Shown one piece after another: positions 1,750 to 9,114 of a stretch of DNA of 11,643 bases. A program made the position numbers and the translations under genes. Under the pieces are notes generated by a model. The model searched no databases. It saw nothing but the letters and a program-made list of their open reading frames with translations, and was not told where the DNA came from. The DNA comes from Vicinamibacteria bacterium (GTDB taxonomy: Bacteria; Acidobacteriota; Vicinamibacteria; Vicinamibacterales; 2-12-FULL-66-21): NCBI GenBank assembly GCA_025937075.1, contig JAICSD010000095.1, forward strand, positions 1 through 11,643, read 5' to 3'. Every line of letters starts with the position of its first letter. The stretch's first letter is position 1.

Positions 1750-1777
1750 AGCCACGAATATAGAAGCCACGAACATA
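1748..1777 (+). repeat. 15-base tandem repeat abutting the ccmE start
   Basis: Two copies of GAAGCCACGAAYATA (1748-1762 and 1763-1777) differ at one position. The last base of the second copy is the A of the ccmE ATG, so the repeat forms the whole immediate leader. No Shine-Dalgarno sequence is visible within it. Confidence 0.75.
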
Positions 1778-2193
1778 TGAAAGCCAAGCCCGTCAAGATT
1801 GGCGCGACCGTCCTGGTGCTCGGCCTGGCGCTCGGCGGCCTCATGTATTCCACGCTCAGCGAAGGGACCGAGTACTACAAGCACGTCGACGAAGTGATGG
1901 CGAATCCTGCCGTATGGCACGGCAAGCGGCTCCAGCTGCACGGCTTCGTCGTCGATCACTCGATCCTCCGCAGACCGGACACGCTGGACTACCGCTTCCA
2001 GGTGCAGAGCAACGGGAGGGTGGTGCCGGTCCGCTATTCCGGCGTGGTGCCGGACACGTTCAAGGACGGCGCGGAGGTCGTCCTCAAAGGGGAGCTCGTC
2101 GGCGACTACTTCGACGTCGAGGCGAACGGGGTAATGGCGAAATGCCCATCGAAGTACGAAGCGAAGACCTCTCCGGCCGCATCAGGCACTTGA
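1777..2193 (+). CDS. ccmE: Cytochrome c maturation heme chaperone CcmE, cysteine variant
   Basis: A 138-residue membrane-anchored heme chaperone. It takes heme from the CcmABCD complex and hands it to CcmF, on the outer face of the inner membrane. Residues 8-25 are the single transmembrane anchor. An OB-fold beta barrel follows (about 33-120), with YKHVDEVMANPAVWHGKRLQLHGFV and the family core LDYRFQVQSNG, VPVRYSGVVPDTFKDGAEVVLKGEL. The C-terminal heme site reads AKCPSKYEAK: Cys123-x3-Tyr127 in place of the His-x3-Tyr of E. coli-type CcmE. Cysteine-type CcmE is known from Desulfovibrio System I* and from archaea, where heme is held through the cysteine. It is the first gene of the ccm run; its stop is one base from the ccmF start. 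Confidence 0.95.
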   Translation: MKAKPVKIGATVLVLGLALGGLMYSTLSEGTEYYKHVDEVMANPAVWHGKRLQLHGFVVDHSILRRPDTLDYRFQVQSNGRVVPVRYSGVVPDTFKDGAEVVLKGELVGDYFDVEANGVMAKCPSKYEAKTSPAASGT

Positions 2194-2194
2194 C

Positions 2195-4651
2195 ATGGCT
2201 ACGCTCGGATCGCTCTCGCTGCTCGCGGCGTTCGTCGTCGCGAGCTATGCTGTTGCTGCATCGGTCGCCGGCGCGCGAAGACGATCGACCCGCCTGATCG
2301 AGAGCGGCGTCGGCGCCTTCTATCTGGTCGCCGCCCTGATGACCCTCGCGTCGGGGATCATCGTCCACGCCTTCGTCACCGGCAACTACGCGATCAAATA
2401 CGTCCAGCACTATTCGGACTCCGCGCAGCCGCTCGCCTACAAGCTCGCGTCGTACTGGGGCGGACTCGACGGCTCGATCATGTTCTGGGTCTTCCTGCTC
2501 TCGGTCTTCGGCAGCGTTGCCGTGTCGAGGAACCGGGAGCGGCACCGTGAGCTGATTCCGTGGGTCATCGCCGTCATTTCCGTCACGGAGATGTTCTTCA
2601 TCTTCCTGATGGTGATGCACAACAACCCGTTCGACACGTTCCTGACGAAGGCGCCCGTGGAAGGCCGCGGCCTGAATCCGCTGCTGCAGAACTTCTACAT
2701 GGCGATCCATCCGCCGTCGCTCTATACGGGCTTCGTCGCGATGACGATCCCGTACGCGTTCGGCATGGCCGCGCTCATTACCGGTCACCTCGATGATGCG
2801 TGGCTGAGGGCTGTCCGGCGCTGGACGATGATCGGCTGGCTGTTCCTGACGTTCGGCCTCACGCTCGGCATGCTCTGGGCGTACGAGGAGCTTGGCTGGG
2901 GCGGCTTCTGGGGATGGGATCCGGTCGAAAACGCGGGCCTCTTGCCATGGTTCACGGCCACGGCATTCCTGCACTCGGTGATGGTCCAGGAGCGGCGGGG
3001 GATGCTGCGCGTCTGGAACGTCACGCTCGTCATCGTCACGTTCTTCCTCACCATCTTCGGCACGTTCATGACGCGCTCGGGCGTCGTCCAGTCCGTGCAC
3101 GCGTTCGGCGAAGACCGCGAGCTGGCGTGGATGTTCACGGTCTTCATGATCGCGCTGCTCGTGTTCAGCTTCAGCTTCGTCGTGTACCGGCTGCCGCTGC
3201 TGCGATCGCGGAACGAGCTGGACTCGTGGGCGTCGCGCGAAGCCGCGTTCCTCGCGAACAACTGGATCCTGTTGTTCTCGGCGTTTCTCGTGCTGTTCGC
3301 GACGATGTTCCCGACGCTCAGCGAAGCGCTGCGGGGAGAGCGCCTGACGGTCGGGCCGCCGTTCTTCAACAAATGGATGCAGCCCGTGGGCCTGATGCTG
3401 CTCGCGCTGACCGGCATCGGGCCGCTCCTCGCGTGGCGCAAGTCGAGCGCCTCGAACATGCTCGAGCAATTCGCGTGGCCGACAGGAGCCGCGCTCGTAA
3501 CGGCCGGTGGTGTCTACGCCATCGGGATTCGCTTGTGGCCGTCCGGCGTTTGCTTCGCGCTGTGCGCGTTCGTGCTCGCGACGATTGCGCAGGAATTCAT
3601 CCGCGGCGCGCGCGTGCGTCGCGGCGCGACCGGAACCGACATCTTCACGGCGCTCGTCGGGCTCGTCGCGCGCTCACGCCGGCGATATGGCGGCTACATC
3701 GTCCACGTCGGCATCGTCCTGATGTTCGTCGGCTTCGCCGGGCAGGGGTTCAAGCAGGACGAGCAGATGCTGCTGAAGCCTGGGCAGCAGGCGAAAATCG
3801 GCCACTTCACGATTCGCCACGACGCCCTGACGGTCACCAGCGACGATCAGAAGCAGATGATTACGGGGCAGGTGAGCGCATTCGAGGACGGCAAGCTCGT
3901 CGCCGAGCTCGCGCCCGCGAAGTGGTTCTTCAACAAGCACGAACAGGAGCCGACGACCGAGGTCGCGATCCGCCGTGCACCCGGCGAGGACCTGTATGTC
4001 GTGCTCGCTGGCTACGACGTCGCGACGCAGACCGCCACCTATACGGTCACGATCAACCCGCTCGTGAACTGGATCTGGTTCGGGTTTGGCGTGCTGGCGT
4101 TCGGCACCGGCCTGGCGCTGCTGCCGGAGCGCGCGTTCGCGTTTGCGGCGGCGCAGGTGCCCGCGGAAGCGGTGACGACGACTTTGATGCTCCTGATGCT
4201 GCTGTTGCCGGTGACCGGCTTCGCCCAGATGGTGCAGCCGATCTCCAAGAGCGAGCTGCGGCGGCAGGTCGAAAGCGACATCATGTGCACGTGCGGCTGC
4301 CGCGCGCCGATGAACAACTGCCCGATGGGTCCGAGCTGCCACGGATTGCAGGAGCTGAACGCGAAGCTGGACACGTACATCGCGCAGGGGATGACGCGCG
4401 AACAGATCCGTGACGCGTTCGTGGCGGAGCACGGCGGCGAGGACATTCTCACGGCTCCGATCGACAAGGGCTTCAATCGGCTCGCGTGGCTCTTGCCGTA
4501 TGCCGCCGCCGCTACGGGTGCGTGCATCGCCGGGTTCGCGGCGTTCCGCTGGTCTCGGCGCGATGGCACCGCCGAGAGCTCGGCTCTCGCGAGGACCGAC
4601 GACCCGGTCCTCGGCGCCAGGCTGGACGATGAGCTCCGGGATCTCGACTAG
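2195..4651 (+). CDS. ccmF: CcmF-CcmH fusion: heme lyase with C-terminal CcmH-like domain
   Basis: An 818-residue membrane protein. Residues 1 to about 650 are CcmF, which transfers heme from CcmE to apocytochrome c. It has many transmembrane helices, the tryptophan-rich WGGFWGWDPVEN motif at 235-246, and candidate heme-ligand histidines H172 (AIHPPS), H260 (FLHSV), H302 (SVHAF) and H504 (IVHVG), spaced as in E. coli CcmF. A periplasmic beta domain (about 535-615) precedes the last CcmF helix (626-643). From about 660 the chain continues without a stop into a signal-like helix ending in FAQ, then a CcmH-like domain: MCTCGC (C698, C700, C702), C709, C715, the helix EQIRDAFVAEHGGEDIL and an anchor helix at about 763-786. 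CcmH normally reduces or binds the apocytochrome CXXCH. An internal in-frame GTG at 4172 could also start a free CcmH. Confidence 0.94.
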   Translation: MATLGSLSLLAAFVVASYAVAASVAGARRRSTRLIESGVGAFYLVAALMTLASGIIVHAFVTGNYAIKYVQHYSDSAQPLAYKLASYWGGLDGSIMFWVFLLSVFGSVAVSRNRERHRELIPWVIAVISVTEMFFIFLMVMHNNPFDTFLTKAPVEGRGLNPLLQNFYMAIHPPSLYTGFVAMTIPYAFGMAALITGHLDDAWLRAVRRWTMIGWLFLTFGLTLGMLWAYEELGWGGFWGWDPVENAGLLPWFTATAFLHSVMVQERRGMLRVWNVTLVIVTFFLTIFGTFMTRSGVVQSVHAFGEDRELAWMFTVFMIALLVFSFSFVVYRLPLLRSRNELDSWASREAAFLANNWILLFSAFLVLFATMFPTLSEALRGERLTVGPPFFNKWMQPVGLMLLALTGIGPLLAWRKSSASNMLEQFAWPTGAALVTAGGVYAIGIRLWPSGVCFALCAFVLATIAQEFIRGARVRRGATGTDIFTALVGLVARSRRRYGGYIVHVGIVLMFVGFAGQGFKQDEQMLLKPGQQAKIGHFTIRHDALTVTSDDQKQMITGQVSAFEDGKLVAELAPAKWFFNKHEQEPTTEVAIRRAPGEDLYVVLAGYDVATQTATYTVTINPLVNWIWFGFGVLAFGTGLALLPERAFAFAAAQVPAEAVTTTLMLLMLLLPVTGFAQMVQPISKSELRRQVESDIMCTCGCRAPMNNCPMGPSCHGLQELNAKLDTYIAQGMTREQIRDAFVAEHGGEDILTAPIDKGFNRLAWLLPYAAAATGACIAGFAAFRWSRRDGTAESSALARTDDPVLGARLDDELRDLD
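4172..4651 (+). other. Possible internal translation start for a free CcmH-like protein
   Basis: Inside the fusion gene, the in-frame GTG at 4172-4174 (codon 660) begins VTTTLMLLMLLLPVTGFAQ, which looks like a cleavable signal peptide ahead of the cysteine cluster. GGAAG lies 3 bases upstream. The next frame reads TGA at 4173-4175, so this spot has the same GTGA stop/start overlap seen at other junctions of this operon. It may be the scar of two formerly separate genes joined by a one-base frame change, or an active second start. Alternatively, a one-base sequencing error could have joined two genes. Confidence 0.4.
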
Positions 4652-5321
4652 GGCCGCGGAACACGCGGACGACGCGGAGAATTCCCCCCAGACCGTGATG
4701 AAGGCCGCGGAACACGCGGACGACGCGGAGAATTCCCCCGATACGCAGTTGCGCGCCCGCGGATACGCTACTAATCGCCTGCAGGTCGCGCAGCTCTTCG
4801 TCATCCTGGCGTTGATCGCCGCAACGGCGGCGGTCGTCCTGGAACGTCAGAGCGCTCCCGAGCGCCTCATCCTAATCAGCGTCACGATTGGAGCGGCTGG
4901 AGCCGTCGCCTTTGCACTGTATCGCGTCGTCGTGCCGCTGATGGCACCGGACGGCGCGATGGAGCCCGAGGTCTTGCACGATCAGCTTCGCGCCGACCTC
5001 GAGCGCGAGAAGATGCTGACGCTGCGGTCGATCAAGGAGTTGGAATTCGATCGCGCGATGGGCAAGGTCTCGCCGCAGGATTTCGACGACATGGCCGCAC
5101 GCCTTCGCTCGCGTGCGATTGGATTGATGAAGCAACTCGATCGCGAGAGTTCCGCGTATGAGGCCCTGATCGAGCGCGATGTCCAGGCACGAGTGGGGAA
5201 GGGCACGCGACGGGCGGAGAAGGAGAAGCAGCCTGCCCGCCATGTCTGCACGTGCGGCGTGCAGAACGATCCGGACGCGCGCTTCTGCAAGGCATGCGGA
5301 TCGAAGCTCGAGGCCGCGTGA
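4629..5321 (+). CDS. CcmI-like membrane protein with C-terminal zinc ribbon
   Basis: A 230-residue protein when started at the ATG at 4629, which overlaps the ccmF-ccmH end by 23 bases; an ATG at 4698 (codon 24) is also possible. Residues 7-37 are encoded by the 37-base direct repeat (AAEHADDAENSP twice) and look dispensable. Two transmembrane helices follow (about 51-71 and 80-104). Next is a charged helical region (115-190) with DLEREKMLTLRSIKELEFDRAMGKVSPQDF, resembling the two-helix plus coiled-coil head of CcmI. The chain ends in a zinc ribbon (CTC at 207-209, CKAC at 220-223). CcmI presents apocytochrome tails to the heme lyase, but the TPR domain of classical CcmI is absent. Position in the operon supports a maturation role; the exact function is inferred. 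The TGATG junction with the next gene suggests translational coupling. Confidence 0.8.
   Translation: MSSGISTRAAEHADDAENSPQTVMKAAEHADDAENSPDTQLRARGYATNRLQVAQLFVILALIAATAAVVLERQSAPERLILISVTIGAAGAVAFALYRVVVPLMAPDGAMEPEVLHDQLRADLEREKMLTLRSIKELEFDRAMGKVSPQDFDDMAARLRSRAIGLMKQLDRESSAYEALIERDVQARVGKGTRRAEKEKQPARHVCTCGVQNDPDARFCKACGSKLEAA
4652..4739 (+). repeat. Perfect 37-base direct repeat, two copies
   Basis: Copies at 4652-4688 and 4703-4739 are identical and are separated by 14 bases (4689-4702), giving a 51-base period (17 codons). Each runs from GGCCGCGGAACACG through GCGGAGAATTCCCCC. The first begins one base after the ccmF-ccmH stop codon, and both lie inside the N-terminal codons of the following gene, in frame with each other. 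Identity across 37 bases in an otherwise drifting junction points to a recent duplication or insertion of a mobile or dispersed repeat. Confidence 0.9.
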
Positions 5322-6487
5322 TGAACTGGCGCCCTCGATTCGTCCTCATCTGCATCGCTCTCATCGCATTCGCGAGCGCCGGCGCTGCTCAAATGCCCGA
5401 CCCGCGGCAGATGTCCGGCGTCCCCCTTCCGATGGGCGACATGCCCGTGGGCACCGTGACCGTTCGCGTGGCGCGCGGCGCGGTCACGAACATCGTGTCG
5501 GGGCAGGCCGTCCGTCTGGAAGGGCAGGGCGTTTCGAAGGATGCGAAGACGGACGAGTCCGGCCGCGCGACTTTTTCCGGGTTGACGCCCGGGACACGCG
5601 TGAAGGCGTCCGCGACGGTGGATGCCGAGACGATCGCATCGCGTGAGTTCGACGTCCCGTCGGCAGGCGGCGTCCGACTGATGCTGGTCGCCGGGCTTGG
5701 CGCTGCGCCGACGACAGCCGCCGTAGCGGGTGACGTGGTGCTCGGCGATCAGAGCCGCTTCGTGATCGAGGTCGGCGACGAATCGCTGAACGTCTACAAC
5801 GTGATGCAGATTACGAACGCGGCCAGCGCGCCGGTGCAGCCGCCGCGTCCCGTCGTTTTCGATTTGCCGCCAGCCGCAAAGGGTGCGGGCCTGCTGGAGG
5901 GGTCGACCCAGAATGCAACCGTTGCTGGCAATCGAGTAACGGTCCGCGGACCGTTTCCACCCGGTCCAACGATTGTCCAGTTCGCCTACTCGCTTCCGCT
6001 GGGCGACGAGACGATGTCGTTCGCGCAGAAGCTTCCCGTCGCGATGTCGCGGTTCGACGTCGTCGCGCAGAAGCTCGGATCGATGACCGTGTCGTCGCCG
6101 CAGATCGCGCAGCATCGCGAGATGACGGCGGAGGGGCAGACATACTTCGTTGGCCGCGGGTCGGCCGTTCCCGCAGGCGGCAGCGTGGCGCTGACGTTCA
6201 GCGGGCTGCCGCATCGATCGCACGCGGCGCGCAACCTGGCGCTCGCGCTGGCGGGTGCGATTCTAGCGGGCGGCGCGTGGTTCGCGAGCCGCCGCCGGAC
6301 GGCCGGCTCCGATCAGCGCCGCGAACGGGTGCAGCGGAAAGAGCAACTGTTGACGCAACTGGCGTCGGTCGAAGAGCAGCATCGCGCCGGCGCGATCGGC
6401 GCCGCCGCGTACGACGCTCGCCGCCGCGAGCTGATGGTCAGCCTCGAGGAGATCTACGCTGCGCTCCACGAGGGGGCGGCTGCATGA
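5321..6487 (+). CDS. Exported, membrane-anchored protein of unknown function in the ccm operon
   Basis: I do not recognise a named family over the full length of this 388-residue protein. It starts with a signal peptide (about 1-23, ending GAAQ). A beta-rich region at about 45-125 follows, with TDESGRATFSGLTPGTRVKA, the pattern of carboxypeptidase-regulatory-like/transthyretin-type domains. The long middle section (about 130-300) is also predicted beta-rich and extracytoplasmic. One transmembrane helix lies at 306-324 (LALALAGAILAGGAWFASR), then a charged cytoplasmic tail with a likely coiled coil (about 332-385). The ATG at 5321 overlaps the previous stop (TGATG) and has GAGG 7 bases upstream. 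Placement inside the ccm cluster and the outward-facing domain suggest help with apocytochrome or heme handling, but this is inference. Confidence 0.75.
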   Translation: MNWRPRFVLICIALIAFASAGAAQMPDPRQMSGVPLPMGDMPVGTVTVRVARGAVTNIVSGQAVRLEGQGVSKDAKTDESGRATFSGLTPGTRVKASATVDAETIASREFDVPSAGGVRLMLVAGLGAAPTTAAVAGDVVLGDQSRFVIEVGDESLNVYNVMQITNAASAPVQPPRPVVFDLPPAAKGAGLLEGSTQNATVAGNRVTVRGPFPPGPTIVQFAYSLPLGDETMSFAQKLPVAMSRFDVVAQKLGSMTVSSPQIAQHREMTAEGQTYFVGRGSAVPAGGSVALTFSGLPHRSHAARNLALALAGAILAGGAWFASRRRTAGSDQRRERVQRKEQLLTQLASVEEQHRAGAIGAAAYDARRRELMVSLEEIYAALHEGAAA

Positions 6488-6515: not shown

Positions 6516-7271
6516 GTGAGCGTCGATTTCACGTCGTTGACGTTCGAGCAGGTGAGCCGCCACTTCGGACGCCGGCGTGCGCTCCATCGAGTATCGCTAC
6601 AGATTACGGCCGGAGAGGCGGTCGCACTGCTCGGGCCTAACGGTTCAGGCAAATCCACGCTGCTGTCGATCGCCGCCACGCTTCTCGCGCCGTCGAGCGG
6701 GGTGGTGCGATATGGGACGCACGACGGCCACGACGGTCCGGCGCTCCGGGGACGTATCGGGCTCCTCGCGCACGATCTGTTCATCTACCCTGAGCTGTCG
6801 GCGGAAGAAAACCTGCGCTTCTTCGCGCAGGTGTACGGGCTGAGCGATGTCAGCCGCCGCGTCGCGCAGGCACTCGAGCGGGCAGACCTCGTGGCGCGCG
6901 GAGACGACGCCGTATCGGCGTTCTCGCGGGGGATGCGGCAGCGGCTGGCCCTGGAGCGCGCCCTGCTGCACGAGCCGCGCCTCGTGCTGCTCGACGAGCC
7001 GTTCACAGGCCTCGACGACGCGTCGACGCGCGCCCTGATCGGGCGCCTCGGCGCGTTGAAGCAGTCAGGCGCCATCGTCCTCATCGCCACGCACGATCTG
7101 GAGACAGTCGACGGCCTCGTCGATCGTGCCGCTGTACTGCGCGACGGACGCCTGGCCGAGGTGCCATCGGGCGCAGGGCCGCTGCGGGAGCGCTACCGCG
7201 CCGCGCTCGGCGCGTCTAAACATGCGCCCTTCAATGCGTCCAAAGACGCGCCCTACAATCAGACACTGTGA
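6516..7271 (+). CDS. ccmA: Heme exporter ABC ATPase CcmA
   Basis: A 251-residue ATP-binding subunit of the CcmABC(D) complex. With CcmB and CcmC it drives release of heme-loaded CcmE. It shows Walker A GPNGSGKST (40-48), the ABC signature FSRGMRQRL (about 140-148; SRGM where SGGQ is typical, as in other CcmA proteins), Walker B with catalytic Glu in LVLLDEPFTGLD (about 156-167), and the switch histidine in ATHDLE. The GTG at 6516 lies 28 bases after the previous stop. The last 19 or so residues (ASKHAPFNASKDAPYNQTL) come from a 24-base tandem repeat and extend past the usual CcmA end. Its TGA overlaps the ccmB GTG by 4 bases (GTGA), so the two are probably translationally coupled. Confidence 0.93.
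   Translation: MSVDFTSLTFEQVSRHFGRRRALHRVSLQITAGEAVALLGPNGSGKSTLLSIAATLLAPSSGVVRYGTHDGHDGPALRGRIGLLAHDLFIYPELSAEENLRFFAQVYGLSDVSRRVAQALERADLVARGDDAVSAFSRGMRQRLALERALLHEPRLVLLDEPFTGLDDASTRALIGRLGALKQSGAIVLIATHDLETVDGLVDRAAVLRDGRLAEVPSGAGPLRERYRAALGASKHAPFNASKDAPYNQTL
7212..7259 (+). repeat. 24-base tandem repeat at the ccmA/ccmB junction
   Basis: Units at 7212-7235 and 7236-7259 match at 20 of 24 positions (GCGTCYAAA, then GCGCCCTWCAAT at the end). They encode the two halves of the CcmA tail, ASKHAPFN and ASKDAPYN. The second unit ends in TACAAT (7254-7259), 8 bases before the ccmB GTG. It resembles a -10 box that could give a leaderless ccmB transcript, though no -35 is evident. Confidence 0.8.
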
Positions 7272-7948
7272 CGTTTGCCGCAACGGTCTGGCTCATCACG
7301 CGAAAGGACCTGCTGATCGAGGCGCGCAGCCGCGAGATCCTGTATACGACCGTCTTCTTCGCGGTCGCGTGCGTGCTGGTGTTCGCGTTCGGCTTCGTCC
7401 GCGAGGGGCATCCGGTGACCGATGCGGCAGCGGGCATCCTGTGGATTGCCATCGCGTTCTCCGGCACGCTGGCGCTCGGCCGCGCGTTCGAGCGCGAGCG
7501 GCAGAACGAGACGCTTCGCGCCCTGATGCTCGCGCCAGTCGATCGGCCGGCCCTTTACGTCGGCAAGCTGCTGGGCGTCCTGATTCTGCTCGCGCTGGTC
7601 GAGGTGGTTCTGGTACCGCTCGTCGCGCTGATGTTCCAGGCGCCGCTCTTTCAGCACATCTGGCTGACGGTTGGTCTCCTGAGTGCAGGAACGCTCGGCT
7701 TCGCCGCCGTCGGAACGCTCTTCGCCGCCATGCTCGTCCGCGCGCGCAGCCGCGATGTGCTCCTTCCGCTGCTGCTGTACCCTATGACGATCCCCGTGCT
7801 GATTGCCGGGGTGCGAGGGACGGCGGCGCTGCTGCAGGCGGACGTCGATGAGCCGATGGCCCGCGTGTGGCTCGCGATGCTTGCATTTTTCGACGTGGTG
7901 TTCGTCACGCTCGCGCTCTGGACCTTCGAACCGGTGATGTCCGAATGA
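7268..7948 (+). CDS. ccmB: Heme exporter membrane subunit CcmB
   Basis: A 226-residue integral membrane protein that pairs with CcmA as the transporter-like core of the CcmABCD complex. The N-terminus WLITRKDLLIEARSREIL is the family signature before the first helix. FGFVREG ends the first hydrophobic segment, and GTLALGRAFERERQNETLRALMLAPVDRPALYVGK is the conserved cytoplasmic loop that contacts the ATPase. About six transmembrane helices are visible. The C-terminal region has RSRDVLLPLLLYPMTIPVLIAG, also typical. The GTG at 7268 is the only start giving the right N-terminus and overlaps the ccmA stop. No Shine-Dalgarno sequence is apparent, so translation likely depends on coupling or on leaderless initiation. 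The stop overlaps the ccmC ATG (ATGA). Confidence 0.94.
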   Translation: MTFAATVWLITRKDLLIEARSREILYTTVFFAVACVLVFAFGFVREGHPVTDAAAGILWIAIAFSGTLALGRAFERERQNETLRALMLAPVDRPALYVGKLLGVLILLALVEVVLVPLVALMFQAPLFQHIWLTVGLLSAGTLGFAAVGTLFAAMLVRARSRDVLLPLLLYPMTIPVLIAGVRGTAALLQADVDEPMARVWLAMLAFFDVVFVTLALWTFEPVMSE

Positions 7949-8604
7949 CCAATCGCACCTTCCTGGCGCTCGTGGTGATCACGGCGGCGATGTTCCTCTA
8001 CGCGCCGTTCATGATCGTCGGCGCGCCCTACGAATCGACGATGGGCCTGGTGCAGAAGATCTTCTACTTCCATGCGCCGATCGGCATGGTCATGTTCATG
8101 TCGTCGTTCGTCTGCGGCATCGCCAGCGCGAGATATCTCTTCACGAAGCACGCGCCGGCCGACCGCGCGGCACTCGCCGCGGCGGAGCTCACCGTCCTGT
8201 TCGGGCTCATCGTCCTCGTCACCGGGCCCCTGTGGGCGCGTAAGGCATGGGGTGTCTGGTGGCAGTGGGAGCCGCGCCTCACCTCGTCCCTTGTCATGTG
8301 GTTGATCTTCCTGACGTACCTGCTGCTGCGCAAATACGGCGGACCTGGATCGGATCGGCTCGCGGCAGGTGTCGCGATCTTCGGGGCAGCGAACGCGCCG
8401 TTCGTGTACTGGTCGGTGAACGTCTGGCGGACGATGCACCCGAAGACGTCCGTCGTACCAACGCTGCCGCCGGAGATGTGGCAGCCGTTCTGGTTCTGCT
8501 TCGCGGCGTTCGTGGTGCTCTATGTCCTGCTGCTCACGATGCGTATGAACCTGGAGCACCGGCGCGCGGAGCTGGAGGCCTTGTACCTCGAGACTCAGGG
8601 ATGA
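7945..8604 (+). CDS. ccmC: Heme handling protein CcmC with a Glu in the WWD motif
   Basis: A 219-residue membrane protein that presents heme to CcmE. About six transmembrane helices are visible. The tryptophan-rich signature reads WGVWWQWEPRLTSSLVMW, so the Asp that follows WxW in most CcmC proteins (for example WWVWDARLT in E. coli) is Glu here. The two external heme-ligand histidines are present: H43 in FYFHAPIG and H165 in RTMHPKTS, the first preceded by the usual VQKIFYFH. Length is slightly short of the E. coli protein, as is common outside proteobacteria. The ATG at 7945 overlaps the ccmB stop by 4 bases. The C-terminal tail is charged (HRRAELEALYLETQG), suggesting a cytoplasmic end. 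The CcmD-like gene follows after 13 bases. Confidence 0.95.
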   Translation: MTNRTFLALVVITAAMFLYAPFMIVGAPYESTMGLVQKIFYFHAPIGMVMFMSSFVCGIASARYLFTKHAPADRAALAAAELTVLFGLIVLVTGPLWARKAWGVWWQWEPRLTSSLVMWLIFLTYLLLRKYGGPGSDRLAAGVAIFGAANAPFVYWSVNVWRTMHPKTSVVPTLPPEMWQPFWFCFAAFVVLYVLLLTMRMNLEHRRAELEALYLETQG

Positions 8605-8617
8605 AACGGAGCAACCG

Positions 8618-8941
8618 ATGAAGCGGAAAGCAATCTGGCTCGCGCTGCTGATGTGTGCGCTGCTCGCGCGGCCCGCGGCGGCGCAACCGGCAGGGCCGCC
8701 GCTGCCGCGGGCGCAGCCGCCGACGAGCACCGGAGCCGCCCAGGAGGGGTTCGTCCCCGTCGATCAGCTGCCGAAGCCGCAGGACACGATTCCCGCGCCG
8801 CGGCTCGTCGCAGCGGCGTACGGCTTCGTTTGGATCGCGATGCTCGTGTACGTGTGGTCCGTCCGGAAGAGGCTCACAACGGTCGAGCGCGAGCTGCAGG
8901 CCATCACGCGGCGGGTGGATTCGGGAGGCCGTTCGTCGTGA
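8618..8941 (+). CDS. CcmD-like protein with an N-terminal signal peptide
   Basis: A 107-residue protein immediately after ccmC. A signal peptide (1-22, ending AAA before Q) is followed by a proline-rich linker. One transmembrane helix lies at 62-81 (RLVAAAYGFVWIAMLVYVW), then a basic, coiled-coil tail (SVRKRLTTVERELQAI). The helix plus basic tail matches the short CcmD family (typically A-Y-x-x-x-W, then L..v..el..l), which stabilises CcmC-CcmE and helps release of holo-CcmE. Classical CcmD lacks the signal peptide and linker. Longer versions of this kind occur outside proteobacteria, as I recall. A good ribosome site (GGAG, 6 bases before the ATG) supports the start at 8618. Its stop overlaps the next GTG. 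Confidence 0.8.
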   Translation: MKRKAIWLALLMCALLARPAAAQPAGPPLPRAQPPTSTGAAQEGFVPVDQLPKPQDTIPAPRLVAAAYGFVWIAMLVYVWSVRKRLTTVERELQAITRRVDSGGRSS

Positions 8942-9114
8942 ACTTCGGCAACATGACGGCGGCGCACTTCATCTTCATACCTGCCGTCCTGCTCGTCGGG
9001 ATCGTGATTGGGTGGATTCTCGGCGGGCGCGCGGCGCAGGATGCGTTCGCCGCTGAGATGAAGAAGAGGGAAGCCCGGTCCAAGCAAGGCGGAGATCACG
9101 GCCGTCGGCCGTAA
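8938..9114 (+). CDS. 58-residue membrane protein at the end of the ccm operon
   Basis: A short protein not assigned to a family. An uncharged N-terminus leads into one transmembrane helix (about 11-29, FIFIPAVLLVGIVIGWILGG), followed by a charged cytoplasmic tail (AFAAEMKKREARSKQ). The GTG start at 8938 overlaps the upstream stop (GTGA) and is preceded by a strong GGGAGG site at 8923-8928, which favours it over the ATG at 8953. The good ribosome site and coupling indicate a real gene despite its size. It could be a second CcmD-like helper of the heme-handling complex, but nothing in the sequence proves this. The stop codon lies in the hairpin that closes the operon. Confidence 0.68.
   Translation: MNFGNMTAAHFIFIPAVLLVGIVIGWILGGRAAQDAFAAEMKKREARSKQGGDHGRRP

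Follow-up and report, generated by a model that had tools for sequence, protein, structure and literature searches.

Variants of System I, the pathway of cytochrome c maturation, in which CcmE carries a cysteine in place of the heme-binding histidine have been described in several lineages. In the parts of a 2011 review considered here (PMC3601427), Cys-type systems are named in delta-proteobacteria, chloroflexi, and firmicutes, about one third of them have CcmH, lacking CcmH is no hallmark of the variant, and CPSKY is the commonest motif (25 of the 36 Cys-type systems examined). The same parts of the review recount that the Desulfovibrio protein binds heme covalently (Goddard 2010) and state as a puzzle how heme is released from a cysteine thioether that is normally very stable. 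According to the sections of PMC9084895 used here, the CcmE of Methanosarcina acetivorans showed no heme band in the C120A variant, C120H was not detected, His and Cys were not interchangeable in the CcmE tested, and the ccm genes of one archaeon were inferred to come from different bacteria.

We analysed a stretch of 11,643 nucleotides (hereafter the window) that we read, with a probability of about 0.83, as carrying a complete Cys-type System I operon of a Vicinamibacteria-like acidobacterium with a one-chain CcmF-CcmH synthase. As a System I variant, it joins a Cys-type CcmE to a fused, five-cysteine CcmFH. It shares with the Desulfovibrio System I* (Allen 2006 and Goddard 2010, as covered in part through PMC3601427) the cysteine heme site and, as far as the scanned ORFs show, a locus with no CcmG, but System I* is without CcmH, whereas the window has a cysteine-rich CcmH fused to CcmF. 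Since System I* was first defined by having no CcmH and a PF03918 domain ends the CcmF of the window, the operon lies outside System I* as first defined, though its CcmE is alike. The CXXXY heme site is also common to the window and to the CcmABCEF system of M. acetivorans, which, in the portion of PMC9084895 consulted, has no CcmD or CcmH and a CcmF split in two, whereas the window has a CcmD-like protein and a CcmF fused to CcmH.

The E. coli System I (CcmABCDEFGH) has the core CcmA-F in common with the window, which differs from it by the change from His to Cys, the absence of R-C-x-x-C-Q, the lack of a detectable CcmG in the operon, and the gene order E-F-H-x-x-A-B-C-D, unlike that of E. 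coli. The plasmid operons of Cytobacillus firmus and Metabacillus have, as in the window, CPSKY and the order E-F-H-small ORF-larger ORF-A-B-C(-D); unlike the window, they have a separate CcmH gene with C-x8-C, followed by a TlpA-type gene. Full-text searches for CPSKY returned nothing related beyond PMC3601427, and those for a CcmF-CcmH fusion and for CcmE and CcmH with Acidobacteria and cytochrome c maturation returned nothing, which is weak evidence of absence as most subscription papers fall outside their scope. Searches for CcmH with Acidobacteri and for CcmE with Vicinamibacter gave microbiome surveys only, judging by title, and the literature searched yielded no experimental work on the CcmE of an acidobacterium.

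The heme site of CcmE

The ccmE gene (1777..2193, + strand) encodes 138 residues, with a hydrophobic N-terminal segment followed by a CcmE domain (residues 32-129; PF03100, 86.5 bits against a cut-off of 24.6) and the heme site C123-P-S-K-Y127, whose codons lie at 2143..2157 on the + strand (C123 at 2143-2145, Y127 at 2155-2157). The NCBIfam equivalog models for CcmE give at best 63.7 bits, below their cut-off of 126. We scored His versus Cys at the heme-site column by alignment, and C123 falls in this column. When matched to PDB chains with phmmer, it aligns with the His of 8ce8, 1sr3, and 1j6q and with the Cys of 2kct (motif KCPLEH), chains that we take to come from E. coli, Shewanella, and Desulfovibrio vulgaris. 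The same column of alignment A2 (38 sequences) holds C in 32 of 32 Cys-type rows and H in 6 of 6 His-type rows, and Y127 is invariant. The protein therefore has the features of a Cys-type CcmE, a Cys replacing the heme-site His and a Tyr four residues on. Its four histidines (H36, H48, H55, and H61) are all distant from CPSKY; a neighbouring histidine as the real heme site is ruled out by the PDB-chain alignment and by A2.

The motif CPSKY occurs in all 80 of the nearest loci, which were retained from 234 relatives found in a genome scan, and, judged from this conservation of sequence, it is no chance pattern. The initial annotation had placed a cysteine, within CPSKY, at the heme position of CcmE and had likened the protein to those published for Desulfovibrio and archaea; the PDB chains, A2, and the 80 loci agree with the former, and the latter holds as well. 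The residue belongs to the known Cys-type CcmE and is nothing new in kind: as CPSKY is the commonest motif of the published Cys-type proteins, it is by itself ordinary. By analogy with the work published on other species, C123 is a putative site of covalent heme attachment, and a heme-transfer chemistry unlike that of E. coli is plausible.

The operon and its CcmF-CcmH fusion

The + strand encodes, between 1105 and 9114, maf, ccmE, ccmF-ccmH, two ORFs with CcmI-like hairpins, ccmA, ccmB, ccmC, a ccmD-like gene, and a small ORF. The ccmF-ccmH fusion (2195..4651, + strand; 818 residues) has PF01578, PF16327, and PF03918 over their cut-offs, while the NCBIfam CcmF/NrfE models score under theirs. 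The CcmF part spans approximately residues 1-645 (match to the CcmF of 6zmq over 27-645) and precedes the C-terminal CcmH domain. In alignment A1 (50 fused sequences, window included), the residues of the tryptophan-rich WWD motif are invariant, as are H172, H260, H302, and H504, which are presumably the heme ligands of CcmF.

The CcmH domain (4229..4564, + strand; PF03918, 35.6 bits in the whole fusion and 36.8 on the end alone, cut-off 25) carries the cluster C698-x-C700-G-C702-x6-C709-x5-C715. Across A1, C698, C700, and C715 are invariant and C709 is present in at least 90% of the sequences. The window has M-C-T-C-G-C-R in place of the classical R-C-x-x-C-Q, so that the CcmH initially described as altered is indeed so, being here the C-terminal domain of the CcmF ORF with a cluster of five cysteines. 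A tally of 70 fused sequences, that of the window among them, gives the cluster the form C-x-C-x(1-4)-C-x(6-8)-C-x(0-5)-C. When 14 CcmH of all the kinds met are aligned (A3), the single invariant cysteine is the third of the window's cluster, which aligns, with the gaps placed by MAFFT, with the second Cys of R-C-x-x-C-Q.

Of the 80 nearest loci, 69 have a CcmH domain that BLAST detects, in every case fused to CcmF. Among the 11 loci where BLAST does not find it, six have a CcmF cut at the contig end; in the five others (L008, L011, L032, L037, and L058) CcmF is uncut by the contig end, so the fused domain may be dispensable there or replaced. When a separate multi-cysteine CcmH was used as a database query, 49 proteins were returned; 17 of them were read, scoring CcmH alone, and have C-x-C-G (8) or a plain C-x-x-C (9). 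The same query gave no useful match among solved structures (2kw0, E 0.74).

The ORF after ccmFH (4635..5321, + strand, with a putative start, the frame being open from 4410) has a conserved place and encodes hydrophobic segments, a CcmI-like helical hairpin, and a zinc-ribbon-like end (zinc-ribbon matches are below cut-off). It is followed by a conserved member of the operon (5321..6487, + strand), whose product is predicted to be exported and to end in a CcmI-like hairpin (E 0.0097 with TIGR03142, below cut-off). By profile, the former matches the ORF at the equivalent place in Cytobacillus; the latter matches its own Cytobacillus equivalent weakly, and BLASTP between these two gives no substantial match. 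The ORFs at both places in Cytobacillus and Metabacillus match the window pair by profile (the second weakly), so the two hairpin ORFs seem to have long belonged to the Cys-type operon.

Downstream lie, all on the + strand, ccmA (6516..7271; PF00005, 105.6 bits; TIGR01189, 129.8 bits, just below the cut-off of 131.6), ccmB (7268..7948; PF03379, 119 bits, cut-off 24.9), ccmC with the motif WGVWWQWEPRLTS (7945..8604; PF01578, 80.6 bits; TIGR01191, 116.4 bits, below the cut-off of 186), a ccmD-like gene (8618..8941; TIGR04391, 24.2 bits, cut-off 24), and the small ORF that ends the operon (8938..9114), whose place is conserved in loci with the full gene order. This full order is kept in 43 loci (window included, some being probably duplicate contigs). 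The gene-order profiles were built from the window's family and include no CcmG model, so genes that seem missing may simply be undetected.

Several minor features were noted along the way. A degenerate short-period repeat array, GATTGCC-like and with periods of 26-33 bases, lies upstream of maf (903-1026). The ORF that follows ccmFH has at its start a near-duplicate of about 36 bases (4665-4740), which was seen by eye and was not listed by the repeat finder. The loci nearest the window have titles that are nearly all of Acidobacteria or Vicinamibacteria bins; three that carry the window's operon are titled Cyanobacteria, Acidimicrobiia, and Bifidobacterium breve (L019, L026, and L062), and these bins are probably mislabelled.

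Cys-type and His-type systems in Acidobacteriota and other phyla

We searched 297 genomes drawn from the phylum, found CcmE in 186, and read 109: the 30 best-scoring and others along the list, the 77 left out including the weakest matches. CcmE is Cys-type in 91 of the 109 (CPSKY in 63, CASKY in 25, CPTKY in 2, and CPSRY in 1) and His-type in 18 (HDNEY in 11, HDENY in 3, HNNEY in 3, and HNNQY in 1). The initial description of the Cys-type as a minority is thus reversed within the Acidobacteriota read, and its rarity in this phylum is rejected.

The type of CcmE goes with the form of CcmH. The 91 Cys-type genomes have a multi-cysteine CcmH (54), a PCC form (9), or none found (28); the 18 His-type genomes have a classical CcmH (14) or none found (4). 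None of the 77 genomes with a CcmH read has a mixed set, and the classical R-C-x-x-C-Q CcmH was never met beside a Cys-type CcmE in the genomes read. For 58 genomes with no CcmH at the locus, the search for PF03918 was extended to the whole genome. The 28 Cys-type genomes with no CcmH found comprise 21 with no PF03918 match, one (G286) with a sub-cut-off match only, and six read over about 3 kb only, as were the four His-type genomes with none found. When counted by locus, CcmH is multi-cysteine in 98 of 98 Cys-type loci that have it at the locus and classical in 14 of 14 His-type loci; these counts include probable duplicates (L143/L045 and L145/L022), and the genome counts are therefore preferred. 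A strict rule by which a Cys-type CcmE implies a multi-cysteine CcmH is rejected, given the nine genomes with the PCC form, the 28 with none found, and the C-x8-C of Bacillaceae. The gene order is A-B-(C)-E-F-H in 14 of 15 His-type loci; in the Cys-type loci that hold A-B-C, E comes first and A-B-C after. One such Cys-type locus has an additional CcmA-like match upstream, on the other strand.

A third form of CcmH, with the adjacent cysteines A-P-C-C, was seen in Cys-type genomes (L081 of genome G004, L216-L222, L226, and L240), and the genome of L037 has a separate CcmH of this form. The A-P-C-C CcmH of G004 has a redoxin-family match, interrupted by one in-frame TGA, about 200 bases away. 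There are also 14 CASKY loci without a CcmF match beside ccmE (L126-L133, L135, L137, L138, L140, L148, and L153); their genomes encode a CcmH elsewhere, multi-cysteine in 14 of 14.

We compared eight plasmid loci around CcmE matches. In those of Cytobacillus and Metabacillus (Bacillota; L251 and L252), a CPSKY CcmE goes with a C-x8-C CcmH and the genes are ordered as in the window. HDENY occurs with R-C-P-V-C-T in two Pseudonocardia plasmids and with R-C-P-V-C-Q in a Paracoccus plasmid; the motif is HDETY in Methylobacterium and Sinorhizobium and HSEEY in Deinococcus aetherius, CcmH not being read in these three. Plasmid regions of Iamia and two Deinococcus around CcmF/CcmH matches have no annotated CcmE and were excluded.

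Under a mixture model, a 59-row CcmF tree that includes Cytobacillus, Pseudonocardia, Paracoccus, and Sinorhizobium (Bacillota, Actinomycetota, and Pseudomonadota) requires H and C to change only once, and the branch concerned has an SH-aLRT of 97; the tree comes from a quick search without bootstrap, and Pseudonocardia and Cytobacillus are long branches in it. It was obtained from an 87-row tree by dropping 32 rows by hand, long branches included, and adding four named rows. The 87-row tree, for which each locus had to supply a CcmF with 420 or more aligned positions, agrees on one H/C split, with long-branch warnings. Independent replication of the pairing of CcmE with CcmH is hence rejected: the types part at one branch on both trees, which makes the pairing one deep, unreplicated event. 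The genes around the Cys-type CcmE suggest that it is inherited within a separate cytochrome-assembly gene set.

Proposed chemistry, competing explanations, and thiol reductants

The reading of the locus as a complete Cys-type operon builds on what is observed there and in its relatives: the genes present, the heme-site residue and how well it is conserved, the joining of CcmF to CcmH, the cluster of cysteines, and the way these features occur together. In the corresponding mechanism, CcmABCD would load heme onto CcmE, the thiol of C123 would add to a heme vinyl group to form a thioether, and Y127 would probably be an axial ligand. Holo-CcmE would pass heme to the single-chain CcmF-CcmH synthase, whose five-cysteine CcmH domain may, as we infer, keep the CXXCH of the apocytochrome reduced and present it, thus covering part of the job shared by CcmG and the classical CcmH in His-type systems. 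The five near loci whose CcmF is uncut by the contig end and has no CcmH domain found by BLAST count against this reading. A compact operon with a one-chain CcmFH and no adjacent CcmG is tractable for the puzzle of heme release.

A broader interpretation, which we regard as rather unlikely, is that System I consists of two ancient, non-interchangeable operon sets, in each of which the heme-site residue of CcmE and the cysteines of CcmH are fitted to each other within one chemistry: His-CcmE with an R-C-x-x-C CcmH and an operon CcmG versus Cys-CcmE with CcmH cysteines rearranged or lost. The cluster could, for example, be a thiol relay of its own or help heme leave the thioether. The acidobacterial fusion would then be a one-chain synthase that occurs in nature and serves the Cys chemistry. 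How cleanly the His and Cys sets are separated predicts which parts should be swappable and which not. Yet the pairing, though clean, comes from one deep split and is explained by shared descent as well as by function. We give even odds to its having no functional meaning, an ancient operon having split once and its genes having stayed together, which is compatible with our reading of CcmE. That a single branch divides H from C in the CcmF tree, three other phyla included, points this way, as does the inferred origin of one archaeon's ccm genes from different bacteria, by which sets can be mixed (PMC9084895, in the sections used); it fits less well with the absence of mixed sets (0 of 77) in a phylum that has both operon types and with the non-interchangeability of His and Cys in the CcmE tested in that study.

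Two other explanations concern C123 itself. It could be a redox cysteine forming a mixed disulphide with the CcmH cysteines, with heme held non-covalently, as the co-occurrence of Cys-type CcmE with a cysteine-rich CcmH might suggest. We find this improbable, given that the Cys occupies the His column in the alignments, that Cys-type CcmE is present where CcmH was not found (28 of 91 genomes, some read incompletely), and that Desulfovibrio and archaea without CcmH need the Cys for covalent heme (PMC3601427 and PMC9084895, both as covered in part). That the heme site lies elsewhere and this CcmE is a decayed copy has hardly any chance of being true: we found no point in its favour, and the intact ORF within a conserved operon, the presence of CPSKY in every one of the 80 loci, and the alignment all oppose it.

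The ten ORFs scanned between 1105 and 9114 (nine of them twice) have no match to the thioredoxin/CcmG family. The lack of CcmG in the initial annotation stands for these ORFs, but the absence of a reductant does not follow: redoxin-family matches and a DsbD/CcdA-type match are present in the genomes of 9 of 9 Cys-type relatives tested, so a missing CcmG at the locus does not amount to having no thiol reductant. The three His-type genomes tested (3/3) also have redoxin-family and DsbD/CcdA-type matches. In the His-type genomes G164, G180, and G148, the best DsbE/CcmG match scores below its curated cut-off and is 2 to 2.5 kb away from ccmE; the DsbE matches of the nine Cys-type genomes lie at least about 6 kb from it (nearest in G036). 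In several acidobacterial genomes, many of the redoxin PF08534 matches contain one in-frame TGA, which selenocysteine or a simple gene end could explain.
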